Shown: positions 7,127-27,327 of the stretch, piece after piece | Layout: every line of letters begins with the position of its first letter | How positions within the stretch are numbered: position 1 is the first letter of the stretch | Source: Plantactinospora endophytica | GTDB lineage: Bacteria > Actinomycetota > Actinomycetes > Mycobacteriales > Micromonosporaceae | DNA: 64,000 bases | Direction of reading: 5' to 3' | Assembly (NCBI RefSeq): GCF_016862915.1 | Contig: NZ_BONW01000013.1 | Coordinates: 124,001 to 188,000 of the forward strand | Translations under genes and position numbers: made by a program | The notes under the pieces: generated by a model | What the model saw: only the letters and a program-made list of their open reading frames with translations | Told to the model about the DNA's origin: nothing | Database searches by the model: none

Positions 7127-8140
7127 TCAACGACGAGGATCGACAAGGATCTTGGGACGGACCCGCTCTGTCGTGGCCGCCCAGCCGGACAAGGTCGCCG
7201 GAACCTCGTCGAGACCGATGATCGACCCGACGAGCGGCGTGGGATCGACCCGGCCCTCCGCATACGCCGTGATCGTCGGAACGAGGCCGAGCGAGGCGCC
7301 GAGGAGACCGATCACCCTGAGGTCCTTCCGCAGGACGGTCCTGGTGTCGATCGTGCTGGGGTCGGTGGAGACGCCGATCAGCACCACCCGCCGCCCGGGC
7401 TCGACGAGATCGACGGCCGCCTGCGGCATCCGGGCCGAGTCGGTAGCGTCGATCACGGCGTCCCACGGCCGGTCCGGCAGGATGTCCTGGGTCCACGCCC
7501 CGTGCACGCCGAGGCTCCGGGCCAGTTCCAGGGAAGCCGCTGTGCGGCCGAGCACGTGCACCTCGGCCCCGTTGGTCAGCCCGAACTGGGCGCAGAGGAG
7601 GCCGATGGTGCCGGGGCCGAGGATGAGAAGGCGTTGCCCCTCGGTCACGCCGCTCGCGGCCACGGCCCGGTACGCATTGCCGCCCGGCTCGACCATCGCG
7701 CCCATCTGGTCGGTGACGCTCGGCGGCAGGGGGCGCAGCGCCTCGACGGGTACCAGCAACTGTTCGGCGAGCGCGCCCGGCCAGTCCCTGCGTACGCCGA
7801 TTTCGTACCGGTCGTCGCACACGTGGTGCCGGCCATCCCGGCAGCGTGCACAGCGACCGCAGCCGATCATGGTGTCACCGGTGACCCGCTGACCCAACCA
7901 CGACCGGTCCACGCCGTCACCGAGCGCGCACACCACGCCGCACCACTCGTGGCCGAGCCGCAGCGGGTAGCTGCTCCGGGCGTGACGAATGCGGGCCTCG
8001 TTCCCGTGGAACAGCGCGGCGTCGGTGCCGCAGATTCCGGTAAGCGCGATGTCGACGACCACCTGGCCGGCCGCCGGCACCGGCGGGTCCACCTCCTCCA
8101 CCGAGCCGACTCCGGACCGTGTGACGAGAAGCGCCCGCAT
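7127..8140 (-). CDS. Zinc-dependent medium-chain alcohol/sugar dehydrogenase
   Basis: 337 residues. Catalytic-zinc ligands are seen in GICGTDAALFHGNE and RLGHEWCG, the structural-zinc cysteine cluster in IGCGRCARCRDGRHHVC, and the NAD(P) motif in LILGPGTIGLLCAQFG. The composition resembles glucose or threonine dehydrogenase-like MDR enzymes, which oxidise a secondary or anomeric hydroxyl. Start set at ATG 8140 (MRALLVTR), preceded by AAGGA; longer in-frame starts add only a proline-rich tail. It is transcribed away from DeoR1 and followed by the SMP-30 lactonase, so a two-step oxidation plus lactone hydrolysis is a reasonable guess. The substrate is unknown. Confidence 0.85.
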   Translation of the reverse strand: MRALLVTRSGVGSVEEVDPPVPAAGQVVVDIALTGICGTDAALFHGNEARIRHARSSYPLRLGHEWCGVVCALGDGVDRSWLGQRVTGDTMIGCGRCARCRDGRHHVCDDRYEIGVRRDWPGALAEQLLVPVEALRPLPPSVTDQMGAMVEPGGNAYRAVAASGVTEGQRLLILGPGTIGLLCAQFGLTNGAEVHVLGRTAASLELARSLGVHGAWTQDILPDRPWDAVIDATDSARMPQAAVDLVEPGRRVVLIGVSTDPSTIDTRTVLRKDLRVIGLLGASLGLVPTITAYAEGRVDPTPLVGSIIGLDEVPATLSGWAATTERVRPKILVDPRR

Positions 8141-8408
8141 CGCATCATCCTTCAGGTGGGGGTGGCCGGGTGGGTCCTGCATCGGGGATGCGGGCTCGCC
8201 CGGCGGTGGCTTGGCACGACTGCTGTCTGTTGACGCTGAGTCCCTGGCGGTTGTCCTGGCCGACGAGCCTCTTCGGTCCGGCGGCGAGGCCGTCGGGGAT
8301 CGGGGGACCGGTCCGTGAAGGCCCGTCCTGGCCTTCGTTCCGCATGCCCTTCTCCTCTCCCCGAGTGTTCGATGTCGGGCCTACGCTAGTCGGGGCCTGT
8401 GCTAATGT

Positions 8409-8474: not shown

Positions 8475-8534
8475 ATGCTGGATGTGATCTGTGTGGGCTC
8501 AACGGGCTCCGACATCACCGCACCGGTGCGCTGA
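8475..8534 (+). pseudogene. 19-codon PfkB-kinase-like N-terminal relic or leader peptide
   Basis: An ATG with GAGGA upstream opens the reading frame MLDVICVGSTGSDITAPVR and then TGA. The residues match the first beta strand and turn of PfkB/ribokinase-family sugar kinases (compare MPLEVVCVGVVTIDTIAVV of the intact kinase at 14839). It is either the stub of a deleted kinase gene or a short translated leader ahead of DeoR1. The motif match favours a relic. Confidence 0.5.
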
Positions 8535-8607
8535 CATGGCCGGTGCGTTCGTACGCGCAGAACTCGACCGCGAGGACGTCCCGGGTCGCGGCCGGAGGAG
8601 CGAGGAC

Positions 8608-9435
8608 GTGTCAGTAGGCGATGGTCGACTGTCCCACGCGCCGATGGCGGAACGACGCGACCTTCTTACCCAGGTCGTCGTCGAGCAGGGCTACTGCACG
8701 ATCTCCGAGCTCGCTCGACGCTTCGGCGTCTCGGAGATGACGATCCGGCGTGACATCGCCTACCTGGTCGACCGGGGGCGGTTGCGCGCGTTTCACGGTG
8801 GCGCAGCAGCACTGTCGCCCGCAGATCTGCTCGGAAGTGACTACCGCGCGCGTGACCTCAGCATGGCTGCCGCGAAGCGCGCGATCGCCGAACGCGCACT
8901 GGAGCTGGTCGAGCCGGGTTCGGTGATCGCAATCGACGCCGGGACGACGGCGAACCAGCTGGCCTCGCTGCTCTCCCCGGCAATGGGCCTCAAGGTGGTG
9001 ACGCAGTCACTCCCCGTGGTTTCCGCCCTGGCCATGAACCCGGGCGTCGAGCTCGAGTGTCTGGGTGGGACCCTGCACAGCGAATCGATGTCGTTCTCCG
9101 GACCGGCGACGCTCGCCGCCATCTCCGAGCTGCACATCGACACGCTCTTCCTCGCCGCCAGCGCGCTCAACGAACGTGGTGCCCTCTGCGCCAACGGGTT
9201 CGATGCCATCACCAAGCGTGCGCTCATCGAGGTGTCGGAAACCGTCGTCCTCATCGCGGACTCGTCGAAGTTCTCGAAGTCCGCGCGAGTCCGCATCTGC
9301 GACTGGCAGGTACCGGATCGGTTCGTCGTGGACGACGGCCTGTCCGACGGCGATCGCGGGTCGCTCGCCGACCTCGGCGTGGTGGTCGACGAAGCGCGAG
9401 CACGCCCGACGGCAGGTGAGGTACGACGGCTCTGA
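8608..9435 (+). CDS. DeoR/GlpR-family sugar-phosphate-responsive repressor (DeoR1)
   Basis: 275 residues. The N-terminal winged helix is GYCTISELARRFGVSEMTIR with RRD following. The C-terminal DeoRC sensor, which has the ribose-5-phosphate-isomerase-like fold, shows AIDAGTTANQLASLL, GGTLHSESMSF and FDAITKRALIEV. Such repressors release DNA on binding a phosphorylated sugar. GTG 8608 is preferred as the start because GGAGG lies 9 nt upstream; an in-frame ATG at 8644 is possible. Strongly similar along its length to the second DeoR at 16867, so the two are paralogues. It is probably the regulator of the divergent dehydrogenase/lactonase genes and the aldehyde dehydrogenase downstream. Confidence 0.9.
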   Translation: MSVGDGRLSHAPMAERRDLLTQVVVEQGYCTISELARRFGVSEMTIRRDIAYLVDRGRLRAFHGGAAALSPADLLGSDYRARDLSMAAAKRAIAERALELVEPGSVIAIDAGTTANQLASLLSPAMGLKVVTQSLPVVSALAMNPGVELECLGGTLHSESMSFSGPATLAAISELHIDTLFLAASALNERGALCANGFDAITKRALIEVSETVVLIADSSKFSKSARVRICDWQVPDRFVVDDGLSDGDRGSLADLGVVVDEARARPTAGEVRRL

Positions 9436-9454: not shown

Positions 9455-9563
9455 CGGCACTGGCCAGGCTCGGCAGTCGAACCCTTCGTCATCCACAACA
9501 TCAACAAGCTCGCCACCGACGCGGATGCCTGACGTCGGCACCAGAAAGACGTCGGCACCAGAA
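9455..9563 (+). pseudogene. Possible C-terminal gene relic followed by a 17-nt tandem duplication
   Basis: Between DeoR1 and the aldehyde dehydrogenase, the frame 9455-9532 ends in AVEPFVIHNINKLATDADA and a stop, which reads like a genuine protein tail without a body. It is followed by GACGTCGGCACCAGAA twice (9531-9546 and 9548-9563), a tandem duplication of 16 nt plus A typical of replication slippage. Together with the kinase stub at 8475 this hints at gene loss on both sides of DeoR1. The family of the tail is not recognised. Confidence 0.3.
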
Positions 9564-9572
9564 GAGGACAAG

Positions 9573-10988
9573 ATGCAGCATCAAGCACTGTACGTCGCAG
9601 GGGTGTGGCAGGACACTGCCGAACGCTGGACAGTCTCGGACAAGTGGACCGGCACGGAGCTCGGAACCGTGTCCGTCGCGACGAAGCAACATGCCACCGC
9701 AGCCGTCGACGCCGCGGAAGACGCGATGCGGAAAGGGCTGCCGCCGTACGCCCGCGCGCGGATCCTCGCCGACGTGAGCCGGCTCGTCGAGGAGCACGCT
9801 GACGAGCTGGCCAGCCTGATCACGGCCGAACTGGGCAAGCCGATCACCGCGTCCCGGGCCGAGGTGGCGCGGGCCGTCGTCACCGCGCGTCTTTCGGCAG
9901 AGGAGGCCGGACGCCTGCCGGGTGAGACCGTGCCGCTCGATGCGGTCGAGGCCGGTGGGGGGACGTTCGCCTTCACCGTGCCCTGCCCCCGCGGCATCGT
10001 CGCCGCCATCACGCCGTTCAACTTTCCGCTCAACCTGGTCCTGCACAAGGTCGGTCCGGCGCTGGCCGCCGGCTGCGCCGTGGTGCTGAAGCCGTCGGAG
10101 CACGCGCCGCTGACCGCCGGATTGATGGTCAGGCTGTTCGAGCGCGCCGGGCTGCCGGCCGGGTGGCTCAATCTCGTCACCGGCCCCCCGTCCGAGATTG
10201 TCGACGCGTGGCTGCACGACGATCGCGTGGCCGTGGTCAGCTTCACCGGGTCCTCCGCCGTGGGATGGCGGTTGAAGTCGCAGTCTCCCCGGAAGCTGCA
10301 CGTACTGGAACTCGGCTCGAACACCGCGATGGTCGTGGCCGCCGACGCGGACCTCGATCGCGCCGTCCCCGACGCCACCACGGCCGCGCTCAGCGGCTCC
10401 GGACAGGCCTGCGTCTCGTTGCAACGCGTCTATGTCGAGCGGCCGGTGGCCGACCGGTTCATATCCGCACTCGTCCGGTCGTTCGCCGACGCTGACTACG
10501 GTGACCCACGTGACGAGCGCACCGTCGTCGGACCGCTGGTCAACAGGGACGCCGCCGAGCGCCTGCTGAACTGGATGACCGCGGCAGAGCAAGCGGGCGC
10601 CCGCCTTGCCGTCGGCGGGGACGTGACGGACCGTCTTCTGGCGCCGACGGTGCTGGTCGACGTGCCTCGGGACAGTCCCCTGCTGTGCGAGGAGGCGTTC
10701 GGGCCGGTCGTCAGCGTCATCGTCGTCGACTCCGTGGCGCAGGCGATCGACGAGGTGAACGCGACGGGCTACGGCCTCAACACGGCCATCTACACCCGCA
10801 GCCTCGCCACGTCTCTGGAGTACGCGAAGAAGGCGCAGGCAGGAAGCGTCCTGGTGAACATGCCGCCCTCGTTTCGGGCCGACCACATGCCGTACGGCGG
10901 GGTCAAGGGATCGGGCCAGGGGCGCGAGGGCGTGAAGTATGCGATCGCGGACCTTCTCCAGGAGAAGCTGGTCGTGCTCCGGCCCTGA
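9573..10988 (+). CDS. NAD(P)-dependent aldehyde dehydrogenase (lactaldehyde/phosphonoacetaldehyde dehydrogenase-like)
   Basis: 471 residues, a full ALDH-superfamily enzyme oxidising an aldehyde to the acid in the cytosol. Catalytic residues visible are Asn150 in TPFNFPLN, Glu246 in LELGSN and Cys280 in SGSGQACVS. The C-terminal FRADHMPYGGVKGSGQGREG is typical of the subgroup with non-phosphorylating glyceraldehyde, lactaldehyde, phosphonoacetaldehyde and sulfolactaldehyde dehydrogenases. Start at 9573 with AGAGGA upstream. It lies downstream of DeoR1 in the same direction and ends at a hairpin. In context it is the candidate for oxidising the three-carbon aldehyde released by the aldolase at 15899; the actual aldehyde cannot be read from sequence. 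Confidence 0.88.
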   Translation: MQHQALYVAGVWQDTAERWTVSDKWTGTELGTVSVATKQHATAAVDAAEDAMRKGLPPYARARILADVSRLVEEHADELASLITAELGKPITASRAEVARAVVTARLSAEEAGRLPGETVPLDAVEAGGGTFAFTVPCPRGIVAAITPFNFPLNLVLHKVGPALAAGCAVVLKPSEHAPLTAGLMVRLFERAGLPAGWLNLVTGPPSEIVDAWLHDDRVAVVSFTGSSAVGWRLKSQSPRKLHVLELGSNTAMVVAADADLDRAVPDATTAALSGSGQACVSLQRVYVERPVADRFISALVRSFADADYGDPRDERTVVGPLVNRDAAERLLNWMTAAEQAGARLAVGGDVTDRLLAPTVLVDVPRDSPLLCEEAFGPVVSVIVVDSVAQAIDEVNATGYGLNTAIYTRSLATSLEYAKKAQAGSVLVNMPPSFRADHMPYGGVKGSGQGREGVKYAIADLLQEKLVVLRP

Positions 10989-11587: not shown

Positions 11588-12895
11588 ATGAAGACTCGTC
11601 CCCTCGCGGCAGGGGTGTCTGCCGTCCTTCTCGCTGCCACCCTGGCGGCATGTTCTAGTGGTGACGCCGACTCCGGCGGTGCCGGGGTCACCCTCACCTA
11701 TTGGGCCAGCAACCAGGGCGCGAGCCTGGACAACGATAAAGAGATCCTCACGCCCGAGCTGGAGAAGTTCACCGCGAAGACGGGCATCAAGGTCAAGCTC
11801 GAGGTCGTCCCGTGGTCCGACCTGACCAACAACACGCTCGCGGCCGCCGTCAGCGGCCAGGGCCCGGACGTGGTCAACATCGGCAACACCAACGCCGTGA
11901 CGTTCCAGTCCACCGGCGCCTTCTACAAGTTCGACGACGCCGCGCTGACCAAGCTCGGTGGCAAGGACCACTTCGTGGGCACCGCCTTCGCCACCTCCGG
12001 CAAGCCCGGCGAGCCGCCGACCTCGCTGCCGCTCTACAGCCAGGTCTACGCGCTCTACTACAACAAGAAGCAGTTCGCCGACGCCGGCCTCCAGCCTCCG
12101 ACCACCTGGGAGGAGATGGTCTCGGCCGCGCAGAAGCTCACCAAGCCGGACCAGAACAAGTGGGGCGTGGTGATCCCCGGCGCGACGGTGAACGCGAGCA
12201 TGCACTTCTCGTACATCTTCAGCGAGCAGAACGGGGGCTCGGCGTTCGACGCTAGCGGCAAACCCACGTTCACCTCACAGGGCATGATCGACGGCGTCAG
12301 GCAGTACGTCGACCTCATGAGCCGCGACAAGGTCGTCAACCCGAGCTCCGCGCAGTTCGCCGAGGTCGCGCAGGCTGCGGGTGAGTTCGCCCGGGGCAAC
12401 GCGGCAATGTACTTCGCGCAGACCTCCGGCATCAACACCCTGGCCCAGAACGGCATGAAGCCCGACGAGTACGGCATCGTGCCGATCCCGGCGCCTGCGG
12501 GCAAGACCAAGATCGGCAGCTTCGTCGCCGGGTCCAACATCTCGATCTTCAAGAACACCAAGCATCTCGACGAGGCCATCGAGTTCGTCAAGTTCATGAC
12601 GAGCGACGAGGAGCAGGCGATTCTCAACAAGGCGTACAAGTCGCTGCCCGCCGTCCAGGGCGTCGAGTCGGCGATCAGCGACGAGCCGGAGAAGACCGAG
12701 GCGTTCGAGAAGGTCCTCGCCGAGCAGGCCAAGCCGCTCCCGCTGATCCCGGGCATCCAGGCATTCCAGGCCAGCGTCGGCAGTGCGGTCGTCGGCCTGA
12801 TAGCCAAGGCCGCCACCGGTTCGCAGGTCTCCGAGGCCGACATCAGGGCCGCGCTGGAGAAGGCCCAGCAGAAGATGGCCTCCGCGCCGAAGTAG
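11588..12895 (+). CDS. Sugar ABC transporter substrate-binding lipoprotein
   Basis: 435 residues, family 1 extracellular solute-binding protein (MalE/UgpB-like). It has a lipoprotein signal peptide, MKTRPLAAGVSAVLLAATLA, with lipobox LAAC, so Cys21 is lipidated and the protein is anchored outside the membrane. The mature part has the usual features of this cluster: an early LTYWASNQG segment, GPDVVNIGNTNAV and WEEMVSAAQKL. ATG 11588 has GGGAG upstream. It heads the operon of two permeases, kinase, aldolase, DeoR2 and dehydrogenase, so it defines the imported sugar. No binding-site residue lets me name that sugar. Confidence 0.92.
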   Translation: MKTRPLAAGVSAVLLAATLAACSSGDADSGGAGVTLTYWASNQGASLDNDKEILTPELEKFTAKTGIKVKLEVVPWSDLTNNTLAAAVSGQGPDVVNIGNTNAVTFQSTGAFYKFDDAALTKLGGKDHFVGTAFATSGKPGEPPTSLPLYSQVYALYYNKKQFADAGLQPPTTWEEMVSAAQKLTKPDQNKWGVVIPGATVNASMHFSYIFSEQNGGSAFDASGKPTFTSQGMIDGVRQYVDLMSRDKVVNPSSAQFAEVAQAAGEFARGNAAMYFAQTSGINTLAQNGMKPDEYGIVPIPAPAGKTKIGSFVAGSNISIFKNTKHLDEAIEFVKFMTSDEEQAILNKAYKSLPAVQGVESAISDEPEKTEAFEKVLAEQAKPLPLIPGIQAFQASVGSAVVGLIAKAATGSQVSEADIRAALEKAQQKMASAPK

Positions 12896-13011: not shown

Positions 13012-14001
13012 ATGTCCGTGACGCTCCCGAAGCGGCCGGCCCGGCGGCTCCGCCTGGTCAGGTCGCAGCACAAGGCCCCGGCGCCCGCGCCGCGCAAGTG
13101 GTTCACCTGGCGGCGCTCGACGCCTTACCTGCTCATCCTCCCGGCCATCGCGCTGGAGTTGCTGATCCACGTCATCCCGATGGTCGTCGGCATCTGGATG
13201 AGTTTCGTCGAGCTGACCCAGTTCTTCATCACCAACTGGGGCGAGGCGCCCTTCGCCGGTCTGGACAACTACGACGTGGCGCTGGACTTCTCCGGACCGC
13301 TCGGCGTACAACTGCTCGAGTCGTTCGGCCGCACGCTCGTGTTCACCCTCCTCGTCGTCGGCATCTCGTTCACGTTCGGGATGTCGGCCGCGCTGGCCCT
13401 GCAACGGTTCCGTCGCGGTCGCGGCCTGCTGCGTACCCTGTTCCTCATCCCTTACGCGCTGCCCGCCTACGCCGGGATCATCACCTGGAAGTTCGTGCTC
13501 CAGCGCGACAACGGCCTGCTCAACGAGCTGCTGACCACCCTGCACATCTCCGACGAGCGCGCGTTCTGGCTGATCGGCGGCAACGCCTTCGTCTCGCTCG
13601 TGATCGTCTCGATCTGGCAGCAGTGGCCGTTCGCGTTCCTGATGACGATGGCCGGCATGCAGGTCATCACCGAGGACGTCTACGAGGCCGCGGCGATCGA
13701 CGGCGCCAACACCTGGCAGCAGATCCGGCACATCACGTTCGGCATGATGCGCCCCGTCAACGCCACCCTGCTGCTGCTGTTGTTCCTGTGGACGTTCCGG
13801 GAGTTCAACACCCCGTTCGTGCTCTTCGGTGCGACGCCGCCCGATTCGGCCAACCTGATGACGATGCACATCTACAACAGCTCGTTCATCAGCTGGAACT
13901 TCGGCCTCGGCTCGGCGATGTCCGTACTCCTGATGCTGTTCTTGGTTCTCGTCGCCGGCCTGTGGGCGCTGTGGAACAGGAAGGTGACCCGCAATGCGTG
14001 A
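13012..14001 (+). CDS. Sugar ABC transporter permease, MalF/UgpA type
   Basis: 329 residues with a basic cytoplasmic N terminus and six predicted membrane helices (first at about STPYLLILPAIALELLIHV). The EAA loop that docks the ATPase is visible as EDVYEAAAIDGANTWQQIRH. It pairs with the permease starting at 13994, whose reading frame overlaps this one by 8 bp. No ATP-binding gene accompanies them. Actinobacterial carbohydrate importers of this class usually use a shared MsiK-type ATPase encoded elsewhere. Confidence 0.92.
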   Translation: MSVTLPKRPARRLRLVRSQHKAPAPAPRKWFTWRRSTPYLLILPAIALELLIHVIPMVVGIWMSFVELTQFFITNWGEAPFAGLDNYDVALDFSGPLGVQLLESFGRTLVFTLLVVGISFTFGMSAALALQRFRRGRGLLRTLFLIPYALPAYAGIITWKFVLQRDNGLLNELLTTLHISDERAFWLIGGNAFVSLVIVSIWQQWPFAFLMTMAGMQVITEDVYEAAAIDGANTWQQIRHITFGMMRPVNATLLLLLFLWTFREFNTPFVLFGATPPDSANLMTMHIYNSSFISWNFGLGSAMSVLLMLFLVLVAGLWALWNRKVTRNA

Positions 14002-14836
14002 GCAGACCTCGTTCCGGGTTTTCCGCTGGCTCGTGTTGATCCCGCTCGCGATCTTCACGGTCCTGCCGCTCTATGTGATGGTCACCTCGGCCCTCAAACC
14101 GCTGCGCGACGTGCAGGGCGCGTTCGAGTGGTGGCCGTCGAACCTGACGTTCTCGCCGTTCGTCGACATCTGGTCGACGGTGCCGCTCGCGGAATACTTC
14201 GTGAACAGCCTGATCGTCACCACGTCCGCGACCGCGTTCAGCGTGCTGATAGCGATCTTCGCGTCGTACGCCATCTCGCGCTATGCCTTCCGCGGACGCG
14301 GCGCGTTCGCCGGAGTCGTGCTCTCGACGCAGATGTTCCCCGGCGTGCTCTTTCTGCTGCCGCTGTTCCTGGTGTTCGTCAACATCGACAAGAGTCTGGG
14401 CTTCACGGCCGTCTACCAGACCCGGCTCGGGCTGATCATCACCTATCTGACGTTCACCCTGCCCTTCTCCATCTGGATGCTGGCCAGCTATTTCAACGGG
14501 ATCCCGCGAGACCTCGACGAGTCGGCCCGGGTCGACGGCGCCTCCGCGCTCGGCGCCCTGTTCCGGATCGTTCTGCCCAGCGCCCGGCCCGGTGTCATCG
14601 CGGTCGCCGTCTACTCGTTCATGACGGCGTGGGGCGAGATCCTCTTCGCCTCGCAACTGACCAACAGCGCGTCCCGCACGCTGTCGATCGGCCTACAGAG
14701 CTACGCCAACGAGACCAACGTCTACTGGAACCAGGTGATGGCCGCGGCGCTGGTCGTCAGCGCGCCGATCGTCGCCGGCTTCATGCTGTTGCAGCGCTAT
14801 CTGGTGGCCGGCCTCACCGCGGGCGCGGTGAAGTAG
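13994..14836 (+). CDS. Sugar ABC transporter permease, MalG/UgpE type
   Basis: 280 residues with six membrane helices and the EAA motif DLDESARVDGASALGALFRI. Its start overlaps the end of the MalF-type gene by 8 bp, and the kinase ATG follows its stop by 2 bp, so import and metabolism genes are tightly co-translated. The length and helix pattern are ordinary for the family. Confidence 0.92.
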   Translation: MREQTSFRVFRWLVLIPLAIFTVLPLYVMVTSALKPLRDVQGAFEWWPSNLTFSPFVDIWSTVPLAEYFVNSLIVTTSATAFSVLIAIFASYAISRYAFRGRGAFAGVVLSTQMFPGVLFLLPLFLVFVNIDKSLGFTAVYQTRLGLIITYLTFTLPFSIWMLASYFNGIPRDLDESARVDGASALGALFRIVLPSARPGVIAVAVYSFMTAWGEILFASQLTNSASRTLSIGLQSYANETNVYWNQVMAAALVVSAPIVAGFMLLQRYLVAGLTAGAVK

Positions 14837-14838
14837 CC

Positions 14839-15909
14839 ATGCCGCTCGAGGTCGTGTGCGTCGGCGTGGTCACCATCGACACCATCGCCGTCGTCGACCG
14901 GGTGCCCGGGCCGGACGGCCGCGTCGTCGCCGCCCCGTTCACGGTGGCCGGCGGCGGTCCTGCGGCGACCGCGGCGGTCGCGCTCGCCCGGCTCGGCGTA
15001 CCCGTCGGCTTCTGCGGCGTCGTCGGCGACGACGAGGACGGCGAACGGGCCCGCGCACTGCTGGACGACGCCGGCGTCGACACCCACTGGTTGACGACCC
15101 GGCCGGGCACGGCCACCGCCAGCAGCGTCGTGGTCGTCACCCGCACGACCGGGGAGCGGATGATCATCACGAGCCCCTCCGCGCCGCCGGACCCGGCCTC
15201 CGTGCCGACGCACGCCGCCCGGTGGTTGCACGTCGACCAGACCGGGTACGGCAGCGTGCGCGCCGCCATCGCCGACGCTCCCGCGCACCGGCGCGCGGAG
15301 GTAATGGTCAGCGTCGACGGCGGCAACCCGATCGCCGGGCTCGATCTGCGTGGTGTGGAGCTCTACGCCCCGTCGGTGTCGGCGCTGCGGGCGGTGTTCC
15401 CGGTGTCCCCGACCGACTCCGACGGCGATGGCGGCGATGTCGCGGCGGCGATGAGGGCCGCTGCGGCTGCCGGGGCACGGCAGGTCGTGGCCACCGACGG
15501 CGCCCACGGCAGCCACGTCCTAGTCGACGGCGCGGCGCGGCTCGTGCCGCCGGTCGCCGTCCCGACGCTGTCCTCCTCCGGCTCGACAATCGGCGCCGGC
15601 GACGTCTTCCACGGTGCGCTCCTGGCCGGCCTCGTCGAGGGCCGGCCGCTCACGGACGCGGCCGCGTGGGCGAACGCCGTCGCCGCCCTGTCGTGTCGGG
15701 CGCTCGACGGTCAGAGCGGCATCCCCGACGCGGCCGAGGCCCGGCAGTTCCTGGGCACGCACCCCGGCGAGACCCACGGCCCGGCCGACCCCGGCCGACC
15801 CACCAGCACCGAGTCCACCACGAACACCCGATGCACAACGATGTCGGCCCGCCGGAGCGAACATGACCCGGCGGGCACGAGCGCACGAACGGAGAACCAT
15901 GTCTGGTAA
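14839..15909 (+). CDS. PfkB-family sugar kinase, YihV-like
   Basis: 356 residues. The ribokinase fold shows the N-terminal strand VVCVGVVTIDTIAVV, the GGGPAATAAVALARLG motif and the catalytic-base motif GAGDVFHGAL (Asp255). The closest relative I recognise is YihV, the 6-deoxy-6-sulfofructose 1-kinase of sulfoquinovose breakdown (VGGGPAATAAVAAARLG there). The three YihV residues known to hold the sulfonate, Lys27, Asn109 and Arg138, align here with Arg28, Thr111 and about Thr135, so a sulfosugar is doubtful. An unusual tail of about 45 polar residues extends past the normal end and overlaps the aldolase start by 11 bp. It probably phosphorylates a ketose at C1. Confidence 0.82.
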   Translation: MPLEVVCVGVVTIDTIAVVDRVPGPDGRVVAAPFTVAGGGPAATAAVALARLGVPVGFCGVVGDDEDGERARALLDDAGVDTHWLTTRPGTATASSVVVVTRTTGERMIITSPSAPPDPASVPTHAARWLHVDQTGYGSVRAAIADAPAHRRAEVMVSVDGGNPIAGLDLRGVELYAPSVSALRAVFPVSPTDSDGDGGDVAAAMRAAAAAGARQVVATDGAHGSHVLVDGAARLVPPVAVPTLSSSGSTIGAGDVFHGALLAGLVEGRPLTDAAAWANAVAALSCRALDGQSGIPDAAEARQFLGTHPGETHGPADPGRPTSTESTTNTRCTTMSARRSEHDPAGTSARTENHVW

Positions 15910-16804
15910 CCAGGTGACGGCGGACCACGCGACCGGCGAGTTGGTCGCGCCGCTCCGGACGGCCGAGGGCGGCTTCGCCATGCTCGCCCTCGACCAACGC
16001 GAATCCCTGCGCCGGATGTTCCCGCTCGTCGACGGCAGAGAAGCCGACGACAGCGCGCTGCGCCACTTCAAGACCATCGCCACCCGTACCCTGTCGCCGT
16101 TCGCGTCCGCCGTGCTGCTCGACCGCCCCTACGCGGTCACCGACGCGCGACCCGAGACGATCAGTCCGGGCTGCCGGCTGATCCTCGCCGCCGACGTCCT
16201 GCACCAGCCGCCGGGTGAAGGCGTGGTCGGGACCTCGCTCGACCCGCTGGTCACCCCCGACTTCGTCCGCCAGGTCGGTGCCGACGCGATCAAACTGCTG
16301 CTGATCTGGCGCCCCGACGGCGAGGCCGCCGCCCGGGCCGAGCTGGTCGAGTCGTTCCTCGACGTCGCCCGCGACGCCGGCGTCGCCAGCCTGGTCGAGG
16401 CGATCGCCCGGCCGGCCGACGGCGAGGTGTGGACGAGCGTAGCGGCACGGCACGAGGGCATCCTCGACGCCGCCCGCGAGATCGCCCCGCTGGGCGGATC
16501 CATCTACAAGGCCGAGGTGCCCGGGTACGTCCCCGGCGACGTCTCCCGGGTCCGCGAGCACGCCGAGCGGATGACCGAGCTGGTCCCGGTGCCGTGGGTG
16601 GTGCTCTCCAACGGTGTCGAAGCGGCCGACTTCGCCGCGGCGCTTCGCGAAGCCTGCCTCGGCGGTGCGCAGGGCTTCCTCGCCGGCCGCGCCGTCTGGG
16701 CCGACACGGTCGCCGAACCCGACACGGACACCGCGCTGGAGGTGCGCGCCGCCGAGCGGCTGCGCACCCTCGCTCGGATCGTGGCACAGGTCCAGGGATC
16801 CTAG
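15899..16804 (+). CDS. Class I aldolase, YihT/LacD-like
   Basis: 301 residues of the DeoC/LacD aldolase superfamily. It is very close to YihT, the sulfofructose 1-phosphate aldolase: EGGFAMLALDQRES, LSPFASAVLLD, DAIKLLLIWRPDG, PWVVLSNGVE and GFLAGRAVW all have clear YihT counterparts. The Schiff-base lysine is Lys204 in IYKAEVPGY, and the GRAVW arginine (Arg264) is conserved. These enzymes cleave ketose 1-phosphates to dihydroxyacetone phosphate plus an aldehyde. GGAG lies 5 nt before ATG 15899. Directly after the kinase, it is the second step of the same pathway. Which substituent C6 carries is not known. Confidence 0.85.
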   Translation: MSGNQVTADHATGELVAPLRTAEGGFAMLALDQRESLRRMFPLVDGREADDSALRHFKTIATRTLSPFASAVLLDRPYAVTDARPETISPGCRLILAADVLHQPPGEGVVGTSLDPLVTPDFVRQVGADAIKLLLIWRPDGEAAARAELVESFLDVARDAGVASLVEAIARPADGEVWTSVAARHEGILDAAREIAPLGGSIYKAEVPGYVPGDVSRVREHAERMTELVPVPWVVLSNGVEAADFAAALREACLGGAQGFLAGRAVWADTVAEPDTDTALEVRAAERLRTLARIVAQVQGS

Positions 16805-16866
16805 TGTCAGTAGGCAACCGGGCGTCAGCAGTGGACCGGCGGACGTTGGACTGGGGAGAACACGAG

Positions 16867-17700
16867 ATGAGCACCGTCGAAGAGAGCTTCAGGTACACCT
16901 CGGCACCTGAGCGGCGCGAGCGGCTCGTGCAGTTCATCACCGAGCACGGCTACTGCACGATCGCCGAACTCTCCAAGGCGTTCGACGTCTCCGAGATGAC
17001 GATCCGCCGCGACGTGCTGCGCCTGGTCGAGCAGGGCCGGGCGCGCGGGTTCCGGGGCGGCGTCGGCTCCCTGACGAAGCAGGACATGGAGGGCAGCGAC
17101 TACCGGCTGCGTGACACCAAGATGGCCGACGCGAAACGCGCGATCGCGCTGCGGGCCATCGAGATGGTCAGCCCGGGGTCGGTCGTCGCGATCGACGCCG
17201 GCACCACCGGCCACCAGGTCGCCGAGCTGCTACCCACCGACCGTTCCCTCACGGTGGTCACCCACTCGTTCCCGGTCGTCTCCAGCCTCATCGGCAACCC
17301 CGGCGTCGAGGTCATGTGCCTCGGTGGCCTGCTGCACTCCGAGTCGCTGTCCTTCGACGGGCCGGCGACCCTCGCCGCGATCGCGAACCTCCAGGTGGAG
17401 ACGCTGTTCCTCGCCGCCAGTGGCATCGGCGACCGGGGCGCGTTCTGCGGCAACGGGTTCGATGCGATCACCAAGCGGGCACTGATCGAGGTCGCCGACC
17501 GGGTGGTGCTGCTCGCCGACTCGTCGAAGTTCTTCACCTCGGCGATGGTCAAGATCTGTGGCTGGGAACCGATCGACGTCGTCACCGTGGACGACGGGAT
17601 CTCCGACGAGCACCGCCGGATGCTCGAACAACAGGATGTCGAGGTCGTCACCGTACCGACGAAGTCGGACCGGGGCGACGTGGTGTGGGAGACGCCGTGA
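16867..17700 (+). CDS. DeoR/GlpR-family repressor, paralogue DeoR2
   Basis: 277 residues with the same architecture as DeoR1: helix-turn-helix at GYCTIAELSKAFDVSEMTIR, then the sugar-phosphate sensor with AIDAGTTGHQVAELL and FDAITKRALIEVADRVV. ATG 16867 has GGGGAG 9-10 nt upstream. A GTG at 16804 is in frame, overlaps the aldolase stop (TAGTG) and begins GTGTCAGTAGGC. The same 12 bases start DeoR1, so a longer N terminus is possible. Sitting inside the operon, it probably autoregulates import and metabolism in response to the kinase product. Confidence 0.9.
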   Translation: MSTVEESFRYTSAPERRERLVQFITEHGYCTIAELSKAFDVSEMTIRRDVLRLVEQGRARGFRGGVGSLTKQDMEGSDYRLRDTKMADAKRAIALRAIEMVSPGSVVAIDAGTTGHQVAELLPTDRSLTVVTHSFPVVSSLIGNPGVEVMCLGGLLHSESLSFDGPATLAAIANLQVETLFLAASGIGDRGAFCGNGFDAITKRALIEVADRVVLLADSSKFFTSAMVKICGWEPIDVVTVDDGISDEHRRMLEQQDVEVVTVPTKSDRGDVVWETP

Positions 17701-18845
17701 GCGGGGCGAGGCTGGTCGAGGGCGGGTCCGGCACGGCCGGCGGCGGGCCCGGTGCGGCGGGCGCCGCCACGGCGCGGTACCGGATCGCGGTCATCGCCGG
17801 CGACGGCATCGGGCAGGAGGTCGTACCGGCCGCCATCGAGTGCCTCGACGTCGTCGCCGAACGCCACGACATCGTCTTCGACTGGCACCAGCTCGACTGG
17901 GGCTCCGACTACTACCGCTCGCACGGCCGGATGATGCCGGTCGACGGACTCGACCGGCTCGCCGAGCACGACGCGATCTTCCTCGGCGCGGTCGGCGTGC
18001 CGGACATCCCCGACGTCGAGACGCTGTGGGGGCTGCTGATCCCGATCCGGCGACGCTTCGAGCAGTACGTCAACCTCCGACCCGTACGCAGCCTGCCCGG
18101 CGTGTCGTCGCCGCTCGCCGGCACCGAACCGGTGGACATCGTGATCGTCCGGGAGAACAACGAGGGCGAGTACTCCGAGGTCGGGGGCCGGCTCTACCGG
18201 GGCACCGAGGACGAGGTCGCGATCCAGGAGTCGATCTTCACGAAGCGTGGGATCACCCGGGTCGCCCGGTATGCGGCCCGGCTCGCGGCCGACCGACGCG
18301 CCGCCGGGCACGCCGGTCGGCTCACCTCGGCGACCAAGAGCAACGGCATCGTCCACACGATGCCGTTCTGGGACGAGGTCGTGCGTGGCGTACTCGCCGG
18401 CTTCCCCGACGTGACGACCGACAGCGAGCTGATCGACGCGCTCGCCGCGAGCCTGGTGCTGCGGCCGCACCGCTACGACGTGATCGTGGCGTCGAACCTC
18501 TTCGGCGACATCCTCTCCGACCTCGCCGGCGCGATCACCGGTTCGATCGGCTGCGCGCCCAGCGCCAACCTCAACCCCGACGGCCGACACCCGTCGATGT
18601 TCGAACCGGTGCACGGCTCCGCGCCGGACATCGCCGGGCAGGGGATCGCCAACCCGATCGGCCAGATCTGGAGCGGTGCGCTGATGCTCGACGCCCTCGG
18701 GCACCCCGATGCGGCCACCGACCTCGTCGCCGCTTTCGAGGCGGCGTTGGCGGGCGGCGCCCGTACCCGTGACATCGGTGGAAGCGCCAGCACGGCGGAG
18801 GTCGCCGCCGCGGTCCGTGCCCACCTGGAGACGACGGCCGCGTAA
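17697..18845 (+). CDS. Tartrate/D-malate-type beta-hydroxyacid dehydrogenase (isopropylmalate dehydrogenase superfamily)
   Basis: 382 residues. The core begins at YRIAVIAGDGIGQEVVPAAI after a Gly/Ala-rich N-terminal extension of about 30 residues. Superfamily motifs are LWGLLIPIRRRFEQYVNLRP, VRENNEGEYSEVGG, ATKSNGI, ASNLFGDILSDLAG and EPVHGSAPDIAGQG. The LWG...QYVNLRPV signature points to the TtuC/DmlA branch, NAD- and divalent-metal-dependent oxidative decarboxylases of tartrate or D-malate, more than to leucine biosynthesis. Its GTG overlaps the DeoR2 stop (GTGA), so it belongs to the sugar operon. The substrate is presumably a 2-hydroxyacid made in this pathway; that is inference. Confidence 0.82.
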   Translation: MSGARLVEGGSGTAGGGPGAAGAATARYRIAVIAGDGIGQEVVPAAIECLDVVAERHDIVFDWHQLDWGSDYYRSHGRMMPVDGLDRLAEHDAIFLGAVGVPDIPDVETLWGLLIPIRRRFEQYVNLRPVRSLPGVSSPLAGTEPVDIVIVRENNEGEYSEVGGRLYRGTEDEVAIQESIFTKRGITRVARYAARLAADRRAAGHAGRLTSATKSNGIVHTMPFWDEVVRGVLAGFPDVTTDSELIDALAASLVLRPHRYDVIVASNLFGDILSDLAGAITGSIGCAPSANLNPDGRHPSMFEPVHGSAPDIAGQGIANPIGQIWSGALMLDALGHPDAATDLVAAFEAALAGGARTRDIGGSASTAEVAAAVRAHLETTAA

Positions 18846-19868: not shown

Positions 19869-19927
19869 GAAGTCCTCCACTGATCATGGGACCCGCGTGG
19901 CCGCGTGATCTCTGTTAGGTAAAGCTA

Positions 19928-19951
19928 GACTTTGACATCGATGTGAGAGTC
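19928..19951. promoter_or_regulatory. MerR-type dyad operator between imine reductase and merR genes
   Basis: GACTTTGACATCGATGTGAGAGTC is a 24-bp dyad with a perfect ACATCGATGT core and GACT/AGTC ends (10 of 12 positions symmetrical). It lies in the 97-bp divergent region, 15 bp before the MerR start, matching how MerR proteins bind stretched promoter spacers. Confidence 0.65.
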
Positions 19952-19965
19952 AAGTGGAGAGTGCC

Positions 19966-20763: not shown

Positions 20764-21771
20764 TCAGCGCTGGGTGAATGCCTGGTCGAATCTCGCGTGC
20801 GGCGGGTCCCAGAGCAGGGACCGGACGAACGCCAACGCCCGTGGGGCGCCGTCGAGGCGGCTCATCCGCGCGTCCTCCCACTCGATCGAGATGGGGCCGG
20901 TGTAGCCGATCGACTCCAGCGCGCGGAACGCGTCCTCGAACGGGACGTCGCCCTGGCCTGCCGAAACGAAGTCCCAGCCGCGACGTGGGTGCCCCCACGG
21001 CAGGTGGGAACCGAGGCGACCGACGCGGCCGTCGCGGTTGCGGATCCGGGTGTCCTTGCAGTCGACGTGGTAGATGCGGTCGGCGAAGTCGACGATGAAG
21101 TTGGCCGGGTCGATGTCCTGCCACATCATGTGGCTCGGGTCCCAGTTGATGCCGAACGCCTCGCGCCGGTCGATGGCTTCCAGGGCGCGGTGGGTGGTCC
21201 AGTAGTCGTAGGCGATCTCGCTCGGGTGGACCTCCAGCGCGAAGCGCACGCCCTCCGAGTCGAAGACGTCCATGATCGGGTTCCAGCGGGCGGCGAAGTC
21301 GGCGTAGCCGTCGTCGATGACCGATTCGGGCACCGGCGGGTACATGGCGACGTAGCGCCAGATTTTCGAGCCGGTGAAACCGGTGACCACGCCGGCGCCC
21401 AGCTTGCGGGCGACGATCGCGGTCTTCTTCATCTGCTCGGAGGCCCGGGCTCGGACGCCCTCGGGGTCGCCGTCGCCCCAGGTGCGGCTGCCGACGATGT
21501 TCTGGTGCCGGAAGTCGAGCGGGTCGTCGCAGACCACCTGGCCCTGTGCGTGGTTGGACAGCGTCCACACGCCGAGGTTGTGCCGGTCGAGGAGGTCACG
21601 GATGGACCGGAGGTAGGCGTCGTCGGTGAGCGCGCGGTCGACGTCGAGGTGTTGCGACTTGCAGGCGATCTCCAGCCCGTCGAAGCCCCACTCCGAGGCG
21701 AGCCGGCACACCTCCTCGAACGGCAGGTCGGCCCACTGGGCGGTGAACAGGGTGACGGGGTGGGTGGACAT
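20764..21771 (-). CDS. Sugar phosphate isomerase/epimerase-type TIM-barrel protein
   Basis: 335 residues of the xylose-isomerase-like (AP endonuclease 2) superfamily. Candidate metal ligands occur in the usual places: EVHPSEIAYDY (Glu), NWDPSHMMWQ (Asp/His), YHVDCKDT and SIEWED near the C terminus. The opening VTLFTAQWADLPFEEVCRLA and the GSHLPWGHPRRGWDFVSAGQ loop are typical of actinobacterial members found with Gfo/Idh/MocA dehydrogenases. It is the last gene of the four-gene reverse operon, 9 bp after the VOC gene. Such enzymes isomerise or epimerise keto sugars, or cleave 3-keto glycosides; which applies here is open. Confidence 0.8.
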   Translation of the reverse strand: MSTHPVTLFTAQWADLPFEEVCRLASEWGFDGLEIACKSQHLDVDRALTDDAYLRSIRDLLDRHNLGVWTLSNHAQGQVVCDDPLDFRHQNIVGSRTWGDGDPEGVRARASEQMKKTAIVARKLGAGVVTGFTGSKIWRYVAMYPPVPESVIDDGYADFAARWNPIMDVFDSEGVRFALEVHPSEIAYDYWTTHRALEAIDRREAFGINWDPSHMMWQDIDPANFIVDFADRIYHVDCKDTRIRNRDGRVGRLGSHLPWGHPRRGWDFVSAGQGDVPFEDAFRALESIGYTGPISIEWEDARMSRLDGAPRALAFVRSLLWDPPHARFDQAFTQR

Positions 21772-21780
21772 CGCGCCTCT

Positions 21781-22239
21781 TCAGATCGATGTGTGCGGCT
21801 GAAGGAACTCGAGCTGGTTGCCGAAGAAGTCGTACGTGTGGAAGCGTCGGTGCCCCGGAAAGCGGTCGTCGGGCTCGACGCCGACGCCGTGTGCGGACAG
21901 CCGGGCGGCGAGCGCGTCGAGGTTGTCGACGAGGATCGCCGGATGCCCGAGCCGGTTGGGGTGGAAGTCGGCGTCGGGCAGGCCGTGGATCTCCAGCGCG
22001 CCGGTGCGGAACCAGCAGCCGATCGGCCGCATGGTCGCCGGCTTGGGGATCTCGGTCAGGCCGAGGACGCCCGCGTAGAAGGCGCGGGCCCGGTCCTCGG
22101 TCCCGACCGGCATGGTGAAGGTGGCGTGGTGCAGACCCCGGAAGAGCGTCGGAGAACCAACCTCCCCTTGCGGTTCGGCGGACCGCAGGATCGGACGCGG
22201 TACGGAAGCGCCGCGCGGTTCGGGTTGACGCAGGTTCAC
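21781..22239 (-). CDS. VOC-family (glyoxalase/dioxygenase fold) protein
   Basis: 152 residues. After a leader of about 30 residues, one VOC module runs from GLHHATFTMPVGTEDRARAF to FGNQLEFLQP. Candidate metal ligands are His in LHHATF, His or Glu in LEIHG and LGHPAI, and Glu in QLEFL. The GTG start overlaps the upstream stop (GTGA at 22236-22239), which supports the longer N terminus. Single-module proteins usually dimerise to form two sites. In this operon it may be a sugar or aldehyde isomerase-like enzyme or a stabilising partner; no specific reaction is visible. Confidence 0.75.
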   Translation of the reverse strand: MNLRQPEPRGASVPRPILRSAEPQGEVGSPTLFRGLHHATFTMPVGTEDRARAFYAGVLGLTEIPKPATMRPIGCWFRTGALEIHGLPDADFHPNRLGHPAILVDNLDALAARLSAHGVGVEPDDRFPGHRRFHTYDFFGNQLEFLQPHTSI

Positions 22240-22964
22240 CGGTTCACCGGCGTCGCGTGGACGCGGGCGATGGCGTCGCCGAGTACGGCGGGAAGGTCGC
22301 CCTCCGGGATCGTGAACGAGGTCTCGTCGTCGATGGCGAGCGGGGCGCCGAACACGACGACGCCGGCTCCGATCGTCGGGCAGCTCACCGCCTGGTCGAT
22401 GGAGAGCCCGCCGACGGCCTGCACCGGGATGGTGGTGGCGGCGACGATGCCCGGCAGGTCGGTCAGCGGGGAGAGGCCCAACTCGCGGTGCATGTTGCGA
22501 TGGTCGTGGCCGATGTGGTGCAGGACCATGCCGACGCCGAGGTTCTCGAGCCGCTTCGCCTCGGCGATCCGGTCGTCGGCGGCCATGTCGTCACCCATGA
22601 CGAGGAGCCCGAAGTCGGCGCCGGCCTCGCAGACCCGTTGGATGGTCGCGTCGTGCGCCCGGCCCATCACGACGACCGCGTCCGCGCCGGCCTCGGCGTA
22701 GAGCGCGGCCTCGCCGTACCCGCCATCCATGATCTTCAGATCCGCGATCAGCGGATGGTCGGGGTATTCCCTACGCAGCGCGCGCACCGCCCGGGTGCCC
22801 TCGGCGAGCAGTAGCGGGGTGCCGATCTCCAGCCAGTCGGCGCCGGCCTCGGCCGCGATGGCGGCCATCCGCAGCCCGTCGTCGAGGTTCTTCAGGTCGA
22901 GCGAGACCTGGACGATGCCATGGGTCAGGTCCTCGCGCCGCAGGCCGCGGATCGAGTGGCTCAT
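22236..22964 (-). CDS. HUMPS/OMPDC-suite protein (hexulose-6-phosphate synthase or keto-gulonate-phosphate decarboxylase-like)
   Basis: 242 residues, one TIM barrel of the orotidine phosphate decarboxylase suprafamily. The signature DxKxxD is visible in IADLKIMDGG, preceded by GADWLEIGTPLLLAEG, with VQAVGGLSIDQA late in the barrel. Members either decarboxylate 3-keto-L-gulonate 6-phosphate or carry out the aldol reaction of formaldehyde with ribulose 5-phosphate. No hexulose phosphate isomerase is adjacent, so formaldehyde fixation is not favoured. ATGA overlap with the upstream TIM-barrel gene and GTGA overlap with the VOC gene place it in the middle of the reverse operon. Confidence 0.75.
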   Translation of the reverse strand: MSHSIRGLRREDLTHGIVQVSLDLKNLDDGLRMAAIAAEAGADWLEIGTPLLLAEGTRAVRALRREYPDHPLIADLKIMDGGYGEAALYAEAGADAVVVMGRAHDATIQRVCEAGADFGLLVMGDDMAADDRIAEAKRLENLGVGMVLHHIGHDHRNMHRELGLSPLTDLPGIVAATTIPVQAVGGLSIDQAVSCPTIGAGVVVFGAPLAIDDETSFTIPEGDLPAVLGDAIARVHATPVNR

Positions 22965-23938
22965 GCTGTGGTTGCTCCTTCTCCCGAGGGGGTGCCCGCG
23001 GCCGCCAGCCGGGCCGCGTCGTGGTTCCGGACCCTGACGGCGGTCGAGCCGCCGAACCAGCGGTCGCGAGCCTCCCGGAGGAAGACCGCCGAGGCACGCA
23101 GTTCGTCGATGCCGTTGACGCCGTCCTCGATGCTGATCCAGCCGTCGTAGCCGGCCTCGACCAGGACGGTGAAGATCCCCGGGTAGTCGTTGAGACCCTG
23201 GCCGATCACACCGTGTTTGAGGGCGGGGGAGTAGCCGATGGTGCCGTCGGCCGACCGGAGGTCGTCGAGGTCGACGCCGGGCTCGACGAAGCGGTCCGAG
23301 GCCTGCATGGTGACCACCCGGTCGATGACGGTACGCAGGAACTCGACCGGGTCGGCGCCGGCGACGAGGGCGTTGGACGGGTCGTACTGCACACCGAAGT
23401 GCACCCGCTCGTCGATGCGGCCGAGCAGTGCATGGAACACCTCGGGCCGCTGGGCGAACTCCGGGTAGGCCCAGGTGCTCGCCTTGTAGTGGTTCTCGAC
23501 GGCGAGCGTGATCCGCAGTTCGGCGGCGAGTGGGATGAGTTCGTTGATCGCCCCGGCGGCCCAGTCGAGGCCCTGCTCGACCGGCACCGTGGGGTGCGCC
23601 TGGCCGCTCAGCACCCGGCAGGTGGCGCCGGGGCCGCCGAGCAGCGCGGTCGTCCGCATGTACGAGGCCTGGGCCTCGATCTCACGGGCCCGGGTGTCGG
23701 GGTCGGGGTGGGTGAAGTCGGGCGATGCGCACATCATCGGCATCTCGAAGCCGGCCCCGGCGATGGCGTCGGCGACCTCGGCGAGGTAGCCGGCCTCGTC
23801 GGACCAGAGAAAACCGGTGTGCAACTCGAGCCCGTCGACGCCGAGCGTGCGCGCGTCCTCGATCCAGTCGAAGACGGTCTTGCTGCGGCGGACGACCATC
23901 GCTTCCAAGTCGCCCTTGGGGAAGGCCGCGATCCTCAT
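22961..23938 (-). CDS. Sugar phosphate isomerase/epimerase-type TIM-barrel protein
   Basis: 325 residues, xylose-isomerase-like fold. Candidate ligands are in GVDGLELHTGFLW, LAVENHYKAS, FGVQYDPSNAL and ISIEDGVNG. The start at ATG 23938 (MRIAAFPKGDLEAM) is favoured over a TTG 21 bp upstream. First gene of the reverse operon, it is divergent from the dehydrogenase at 24041, with an inverted repeat between them. Its sequence is only distantly related to the family member at 20764, so the two should have different substrates in the pathway. Confidence 0.8.
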   Translation of the reverse strand: MRIAAFPKGDLEAMVVRRSKTVFDWIEDARTLGVDGLELHTGFLWSDEAGYLAEVADAIAGAGFEMPMMCASPDFTHPDPDTRAREIEAQASYMRTTALLGGPGATCRVLSGQAHPTVPVEQGLDWAAGAINELIPLAAELRITLAVENHYKASTWAYPEFAQRPEVFHALLGRIDERVHFGVQYDPSNALVAGADPVEFLRTVIDRVVTMQASDRFVEPGVDLDDLRSADGTIGYSPALKHGVIGQGLNDYPGIFTVLVEAGYDGWISIEDGVNGIDELRASAVFLREARDRWFGGSTAVRVRNHDAARLAAAGTPSGEGATTA

Positions 23939-23956
23939 GGCCTGAGACCCTAGCAC

Positions 23957-23986
23957 CAAAGTGTGGGAGGAAGACTACAGACTTTG
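23957..23986. promoter_or_regulatory. Inverted repeat in the divergent promoter region of the second sugar island
   Basis: CAAAGT (23957-23962) and ACTTTG (23981-23986) are perfect inverted arms separated by 18 bp, so their centres are 24 bp apart on the same face of the helix. The region serves both operons (starts at 23938 and 24041). The spacing suits a LacI-, GntR- or ROK-type dimer, but no regulator gene lies in either operon. Confidence 0.4.
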
Positions 23987-24040
23987 AGCGGTTCCTGTTC
24001 TATTGTTGACGCGCCCCGAGCATCCTGGAGGATCAGCCGC

Positions 24041-27305: not shown

Positions 27306-27327
27306 ATCTCCCGAAAGGCCCACTCCT

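Follow-up and report, generated by a model that had tools for sequence, protein, structure and literature searches.

A YihT-related aldolase outside the YihT clade and its YihV-like kinase in Plantactinospora endophytica may serve a non-sulfonated ketose

A 64,000-nucleotide stretch of the 9.68 Mb Plantactinospora endophytica genome (contig NZ_BONW01000013.1, positions 124,001 to 188,000; hereafter the window) encodes, side by side, a PfkB-family kinase and a class I aldolase of the DeoC/LacD family that resemble YihV and YihT, the kinase and aldolase of sulfoquinovose catabolism. Genes for a DeoR-family regulator and a tartrate/D-malate dehydrogenase family protein (TDH) follow them, and genes for an ATP-binding cassette (ABC) importer and an aldehyde dehydrogenase (ALDH) precede them (Table 1). 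Both family assignments exceed the Pfam cut-offs (PF00294, 124.6 bits, with the GAGD motif present; PF01791, 73 bits). The top PDB relative of the kinase is sulfofructose kinase (7ag6, 130 bits, against 78 for the runner-up), and those of the aldolase are the YihT entries 7ag7, 1to3 and 7ag1 (184–187 bits, against 63 for the best non-YihT entry), margins wide enough to bear out the kinship that an earlier note on this DNA had proposed. LacD (tagatose-bisphosphate aldolase) and other PfkB kinases belong to the same superfamilies and have the same catalytic residues but score far lower. The note was also right that the aldolase keeps its catalytic residues, as Lys204 aligns by phmmer with the Schiff-base lysine of YihT (YKAEVPGY in the window, YKVEMPLY in YihT) and GRAVW, with its arginine, is intact. 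The sulfoglycolytic Embden-Meyerhof-Parnas (sulfo-EMP) system of E. coli (YihS, YihV, YihT, and YihU) is alike in its PfkB kinase, class I aldolase, and DeoR-type regulator. We propose, with a probability of about 0.5, that the pair comprises a ketose 1-kinase and a class I ketose-1-phosphate aldolase of a group, here called group A, that is kin to the sulfofructose enzymes yet distinct from them, and that it would yield dihydroxyacetone phosphate (DHAP) and a short unsulfonated hydroxyaldehyde that is then oxidised. The non-sulfonated part of this proposal draws on the aldolase tree, the gene content of related loci, the type of dehydrogenase, and the missing YihS.

The window aldolase is matched in 45 of 394 genomes of the class (its own included) at an E-value of 1e-20 or better, with a gap in identity between five genomes besides its own at 55–67% and all others at 47% or less. 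A scan of named genomes gave 32 aldolase loci. In an aldolase tree of 62 rows, the close relatives of the window protein stand apart from the clade containing E. coli YihT, and the two sets, group A and YihT clade, received their names only once this tree had been seen; 11 f28 rows were left out of the aldolase tree, and L040 and L044 were dropped as copies of L066 and L073. When 52 rows were analysed, one branch (support 95, starred) set off the 15 YihT-clade rows from the rest, and a second (support 82, unstarred) did so for the 23 group A rows. A topology that unites group A with the actinobacterial YihT-clade aldolases but excludes the proteobacterial ones is rejected (p-AU 1.3e-6), and a single clade of group A plus arabinose-type rows is neither shown nor rejected (p-AU 0.548). 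Short motifs run along the same lines: the Gly and Tyr of VPGY after the lysine are present in 23/23 group A rows, the Asn of LSNGV likewise in 23/23 where all 15 YihT-clade rows have Ser, and an inserted Trp (Trp178 in the window) in 21/23. The window aldolase sits outside the YihT clade. The earlier note had looked to phylogeny for a pair separate from the sulfo-EMP enzymes, and this is borne out for the aldolase but is less clear for the kinase, in whose tree both kinds are intermixed. The two kinds of aldolase also coexist in single genomes, with one locus per clade in the tree for G200 (L049 and L073), a copy 67% identical to that of L053 plus a copy at 42% in G406, and a copy at 53% to that of L053 plus two at 42% in G403. 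Because of this coexistence, the two kinds of aldolase in one cell would seem to have two jobs.

The earlier note had argued for a new substrate from the kinase. In YihV, the sulfonate is held by Lys27, Asn109, and Arg138, an assignment whose numbering we take over from that note as an assumption; no paper on Arg138 with sulfofructose was found in the open-licence literature. The replacements themselves largely stand. Both phmmer and MAFFT alignments turn Lys27 into Arg28 and Asn109 into Thr111 in the window kinase. The region of Arg138 aligns poorly, with the two programs placing this residue at different kinase positions, and the note's placement at about Thr135 agrees with a match by eye of the strand WLHVDQTGY to VVLADVRWHDG, which gives Gln134 or Thr135. 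What does not stand is the use of these losses as a sign of another substrate. Seven actinobacterial control kinases encoded beside YihT-clade aldolases (L046, L051, L053, L054, L056, L058, and L082; sequence-assigned) have Arg at position 27 in 7/7 cases, Thr (5), Asn (1), or His (1) at position 109, so that six of the seven are without Asn109, and, in an alignment by eye, D-H-x-G-W in 7/7 where YihV has A-D-V-R-W. The L053 kinase also adjoins a YihS gene 60% identical to that of E. coli and an ALDH with both acid-binding arginines. Since YihT-clade actinobacterial kinases, including that of L053 beside YihS, share the losses, these are not diagnostic of substrate; they appear to typify actinobacterial kinases generally rather than a change of substrate, and they were ruled out as proof that the substrate is new. 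The observation in the earlier note thus holds and its stated reason does not, and its conclusion that the sugar carries no sulfonate is probably right for other reasons.

A different kinase motif does distinguish the two kinds, D-Q-x-G occurring in 20/22 group A kinases and D-H-x-G-W in 8/8 actinobacterial YihT-clade kinases. In the kinase tree, from which the 11 f28 rows and L083 were left out, two proteobacterial rows join E. coli YihV, and the other side holds both kinds of actinobacterial kinase, a further proteobacterial row, and three Chloroflexota rows. The reading frame of the window kinase extends about 35–45 residues beyond most group A relatives (positions 15775–15909; 105 residues from GAGD on, compared with 56–74) and closes with a tail rich in Thr and Ser over the start of the aldolase gene; longer frames are present in L061, L074, and L076 too.

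Gene content was counted in 23 group A and 14 YihT-clade loci within the fetched stretches (6.8 to 20.9 kb for group A plus 32 kb of the window, and 12.7 to 20.8 kb for the YihT clade), absences being minimal statements; L085, a near copy of L076, was left out. A TDH-like gene lies in 20/23 group A loci but 1/14 YihT-clade loci, an ALDH gene at 50% or more identity to that of the window in 18/23 versus 0/14, and a gene at 60% or more to the window's relative of hexulose-phosphate synthase (HPS) in 11/23 versus 0/14. The balance is reversed for a GabD-type ALDH at 38% or more, found in 8/14 YihT-clade loci and in one group A locus (L077), where the match is its own group A type ALDH scored twice, making the group A count effectively 0/23. 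YihS occurs in 0/23 group A loci and 1/14 YihT-clade loci (L053 only). The order kinase-aldolase-DeoR-TDH-ALDH is intact in L070, L071, L072, L074, L076, L077, and L090, where the transporters are about 30% identical to those of the window and where, in four of the seven, an alcohol dehydrogenase-like gene follows DeoR.

Table 1. Genes of the cluster, with positions in the window.
Feature	Position	Strand	Remarks
PfkB-family ketose kinase, YihV-like	14839..15909	+	Proposed ketose 1-kinase; GAGD kept; motif WLHVD-Q-TGY
Class I aldolase, DeoC/LacD family, YihT-like	15899..16804	+	Lys204 (Schiff base), Arg264 in GRAVW; VPGY, LSNGV, inserted Trp178
DeoR-family regulator	16849..17700	+	Member of the conserved kinase-aldolase-DeoR-TDH-ALDH block
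TDH, tartrate/D-malate dehydrogenase family	17697..18845	+	TIGR02089 (TTC), over the NCBIfam cut-off
ALDH, aldehyde dehydrogenase	9525..10988	+	Lactaldehyde type by top NCBIfam score (below the family cut-off)
ABC sugar-binding lipoprotein	11588..12895	+	SBP_bac_1
ABC permease 1	13012..14001	+	
ABC permease 2	13994..14836	+	
Second DeoR-family regulator	8491..9435	+	
ADH1, zinc alcohol dehydrogenase	7127..8182	-	Also in L071, L072, L087, L090
SMP-30/gluconolactonase family	6188..7042	-	Also in L071, L078, L090
TIM1, xylose-isomerase-like TIM barrel	20764..21771	-	
GLX, glyoxalase-superfamily protein	21781..22239	-	Adjoins TIM1 in many relatives
HPS	22236..22964	-	Relative of 3-keto-L-gulonate-6-phosphate decarboxylase (UlaD) and hexulose-phosphate synthase
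TIM2, xylose-isomerase-like TIM barrel	22961..23959	-	Epimerase/isomerase candidate
ADH2, zinc polyol-type dehydrogenase	23963..25090	+	
Three Gfo/Idh/MocA oxidoreductases and one TIM barrel	25087..29201	+	TIM barrel at 27328-28104; families F14, F15, F23, F24 common to several relatives

The window seems to join two types of cluster. Its ALDH groups with those of L071, L072, and L090 (97, starred, in the ALDH tree), loci that also carry ADH1 and, in two cases, the SMP-30 gene, and the rest of the cluster matches the type of L060–L069, where the ALDH gene, if present, follows DeoR or TDH. Between TDH and TIM1 (18993–20319) lie an imine-reductase-like gene with a RedAm-like C-terminal domain and a MerR regulator, which are not at this place in the mapped relatives.

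The conservation of the five-gene block beside unrelated transporters argues against a broad ketose 1-phosphate aldolase system that works on ordinary fructose or tagatose and belongs to no dedicated pathway. Such a system could draw on the flexibility that DHAP aldolases often show toward the aldehyde, as stated in PMC10733421; there, E. coli YihT itself failed to serve with formaldehyde. With HPS relatives at 80% or more found only in genomes with a group A aldolase, even where the two are unlinked, we regard this explanation as quite improbable.

The dehydrogenases speak to the products. Succinate-semialdehyde dehydrogenases (SSADHs) and sulfolactaldehyde (SLA) dehydrogenases share an acid-binding pair of arginines, and in some Bacillus SLA dehydrogenases His replaces the first Arg and Asn is the second residue (PMC10599462). 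At these positions, both residues are Arg in 9/9 ALDH rows from YihT-clade loci, whereas in 19/19 group A rows the first is His and the second varies, being neither Arg nor Asn in any row. The GabD type of the YihT-clade loci forms a clade distinct from that of group A in the ALDH tree (calculated without L089), and the ALDHs of L079 and the similar L084 nest within the group A clade. Because the group A ALDHs are without the arginine pair and share their clade with those of L079 and L084, a neutral short hydroxyaldehyde such as glycolaldehyde is favoured as the predicted substrate. L079 and L084 belong with L075 and L081 to a set of loci whose aldolases are 45–51% identical to that of the window and in which aldo/keto reductase and FGGY kinase families, the latter in place of PfkB, occur in all four (Pfam-checked in L079); L075, L079, and L084 have a 2-hydroxyacid dehydrogenase rather than a TDH-like gene, and a GH51-type arabinofuranosidase is encoded in L079 and a GH127 enzyme in L075. 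An ALDH identity of 80% in L081 was disregarded, since another called gene begins at base 165 there and the match can only be to a contig-edge fragment.

TDH scores 505 bits against the TIGR02089 cut-off of 470, falls below that of a second tartrate model, PRK08194 (491 against 501), and is 55% identical to E. coli DmlA. Eight residues that we take to be catalytic or malate-binding are identical in 27/27 aligned TDH-like rows, and at nine further columns DmlA and L101 depart from a residue that is invariant in group A.

A divergent but true sulfo-EMP pathway would read these genes differently, with an unrecognised isomerase providing sulfofructose, the pair forming DHAP and SLA, the ALDH making sulfolactate, and TDH making sulfopyruvate. 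Sulfolactate is an isostere of malate, which would suit TDH, YihV and YihT are the top PDB relatives of the pair, and Arg28 could still bind an anion. The His that replaces the first Arg in some Bacillus SLA dehydrogenases (PMC10599462) is present in group A as well, but the second Bacillus residue, Asn, is found in 0/19 rows. The explanation also has a published precedent, because Kaur et al. 2022 list the Acrocarpospora corrugata contig BLAD01000050.1 as a more distantly related sulfo-EMP cluster (PMC8873060). On this contig lies the group A locus L062. It has the importer, kinase, aldolase, DeoR, ALDH, TIM1, GLX, HPS, TIM2, and ADH2 genes in window order, except that ALDH follows DeoR, and it differs in having no TDH-like gene within the 20.9 kb fetched. 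In the sulfo-EMP clusters of Arthrobacter AK01/AK04, an SLA dehydrogenase replaces YihU, and these clusters resemble the window further in having an ABC importer, an IolG (Gfo/Idh/MocA) gene, and an aldehyde dehydrogenase (PMC8873060).

The sulfoquinovose markers count against that explanation. A YihS query gave no match in the cluster or in the genome of P. endophytica (SqvD was not searched), and the A. corrugata genome has one aldolase match and no YihS match. The query was used directly in place of PF07221, which was set aside after the E. coli control gave no match. Relative to sulfo-EMP systems, the window cluster has an aldolase of a separate clade, no YihS or GabD-type SLA dehydrogenase was found in it, and it adds a conserved TDH-like gene together with the HPS and TIM-barrel genes; of the SLA dehydrogenase signatures, neither the Arg pair nor the His/Asn combination is present, although the Bacillus-type His is. 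No YihU was identified in the window cluster, the search being confined to the mapped loci. Nothing in the P. endophytica genome exceeds the Xsc cut-off, although relatives below it occur, and this is a weak test in that 0/14 controls passed. One GH31 protein lies elsewhere in the genome and is without the aligned Arg and Trp of YihQ, which we take to be the sulfoquinovosidase signature. The GH31 proteins of YihT-clade loci were set aside as proof of sulfoquinovosidases, as they keep the Arg but have Cys for the Trp in 6/6. The binding lipoprotein of the importer scores 46 bits to the sulfoquinovosyl-glycerol binding protein and 120 to its top PDB entry. With two aldolase kinds also coexisting in single genomes and the group A ALDHs falling in a different clade from the GabD type, a sulfo-EMP role for the window pair appears unlikely. 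If group A does use another sugar, listings based on YihV and YihT, at least in the case of A. corrugata, overstate sulfoquinovose use among actinobacteria, and simple marks (aldolase clade, kinase Gln motif, and TDH/ALDH neighbours) separate the two kinds.

The genes beyond TDH extend the cluster. HPS keeps D-x-K-x-x-D, as well as the Asp, Glu, and His that align with those of UlaD, but near the phosphate site it has PLA for the UlaD GRS, with loss of the phosphate Arg. An unphosphorylated compound may pass through a keto-acid or keto-sugar step ahead of the kinase. HPS relatives occur in 13/394 genomes at 1e-60 or better. Five are 80% or more identical, all within the six genomes that have a group A aldolase at 55% or more, and in one of these five the HPS and aldolase sets are 1.6 Mb apart; the five represent three genera and thus about three independent observations. 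The remaining eight, at 52–55% identity, are those of the f28 genomes, two of which have relatives of HPS, ADH2, and TIM2 in a short run, one run with an extra gene inside. The PDB relatives of TIM1 are 2zds, a "putative DNA-binding protein" (494 bits), and 8ro4, a 2-hydroxy-3-keto-glucal hydratase (125 bits), an activity on which no paper was found in the open-licence literature. TIM1 alone says little because its wider family is common (140/394 genomes). The extended cluster could open glycosides by way of 3-keto sugars, with the HPS/UlaD-like protein decarboxylating an unphosphorylated 3-keto acid to a pentulose and the pair splitting pentulose 1-phosphate into DHAP and glycolaldehyde. We consider this particular route speculative and rather unlikely; if it is true, YihT-type class I aldolases serve pentulose catabolism as well as sulfosugars.

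The proposal of a non-sulfonated ketose can be set out as a sequence of steps. The ABC importer, upstream oxidoreductases, and TIM-barrel enzymes would take up a sugar or glycoside and convert it to a ketose without sulfonate, which the kinase would phosphorylate at C1. Through a Schiff base at Lys204, the aldolase would cut between C3 and C4 to give DHAP and a short hydroxyaldehyde, a chemistry predicted from its family and consistent with the residues present. The lactaldehyde-type ALDH would oxidise this aldehyde, most likely a neutral one (glycolaldehyde, glyceraldehyde, or lactaldehyde), and TDH may act on the resulting or a related hydroxy acid. No published description of a tartrate dehydrogenase/aldolase/sugar-kinase cluster or of such a natural pathway was found in the open-licence literature, judged partly by titles. 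In a conserved actinobacterial cluster, the gene set outlines a definite sugar pathway open to experiment, with a kinase-aldolase pair built like that of sulfo-EMP.

Several points weigh against this scheme. The functions of group A enzymes are assigned from sequence throughout, the aldolase clade is supported at 82 only, and the kinase tree does not cleanly separate group A, the actinobacterial kinases of YihT-clade loci being interspersed with those of group A and distant from E. coli YihV. TDH, ALDH, and HPS are each missing from some group A loci. In 14 genomes searched, the YihS query recovered its own source and found clear relatives in the group A-bearing genomes G405 (44%) and G406 (52%) and a weak one in G403, the other ten being without a match. 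Finally, TDH would be better matched to an acid like malate or tartrate than to glycolate or glycerate, and Cereibacter sphaeroides pairs a TDH-like gene with a GabD-type ALDH, a YihT-clade aldolase, and a YihV-like kinase keeping Lys27 and Arg138, so that a TDH-like gene can accompany an anionic substrate. The Cereibacter genes (L093, 4374–9789) form a plasmid module, zinc alcohol dehydrogenase-SSADH-TDH-aldolase-kinase, with the same five functions beside an ABC importer; it differs in that its aldolase and kinase are of the YihT/YihV branches, its ALDH is 57% identical to E. coli GabD, and its TDH is 52% identical to DmlA. The module appears to be a second pathway with no assigned substrate.

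These last observations bear on a ketose whose tail is a carboxylate, such as a keto acid of seven carbons, which the pair would split into DHAP and a C4 semialdehyde acid, the ALDH oxidising the latter to malate or tartrate and TDH leading on to pyruvate, glycerate, or oxaloglycolate. The TDH-like gene in 20/23 group A loci, over the NCBIfam cut-off for tartrate dehydrogenase and with its presumed catalytic residues kept, fits this idea, as does the joining in Cereibacter of TDH to an ALDH with both acid-binding arginines and a kinase that retains Lys27 and Arg138, and the neighbouring lactonase and sugar dehydrogenase genes could make an aldonate. Against this, both acid-binding arginines are lost in 19/19 group A ALDH rows, the ALDH falls in the same clade as that of the arabinofuranosidase cluster L079, and we know of no common natural seven-carbon substrate. 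A carboxylate-tailed substrate is therefore a tentative, minority possibility. It is the most concrete form of the earlier note's undescribed pathway for a sugar with a different C6 group; the non-sulfonated ketose in that claim is probably right on the evidence of tree, gene content, ALDH type, and missing YihS, but a changed C6 group is one option among others, and the ALDH points to a neutral short aldehyde.

Some related loci show further arrangements. In the Serinicoccus genome G405, which also holds L076, the 44% YihS relative adjoins an aldolase whose identity to that of L053 is just 32% (contig C2, 342478–345322). On a plasmid of Arthrobacter sp. YA7-1 typed as conjugative, L092 (4090–12158) encodes a short-chain dehydrogenase/reductase, a dehydratase, a dihydrodipicolinate synthase-like protein, and an SMP-30 protein beside YihV/YihT-like genes, an SSADH-type gene, and TauE, possibly a mix of sulfo-EMP genes with those of the sulfoglycolytic Entner-Doudoroff pathway. 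Another YihT-related aldolase subfamily, with Gln for the second Ser of LSSGV, is found in L048, L050, L052, L057, L059, and L095; no YihV-like kinase match occurs in these stretches, and a frame in L050 resembles a GH1 glycosidase by eye.

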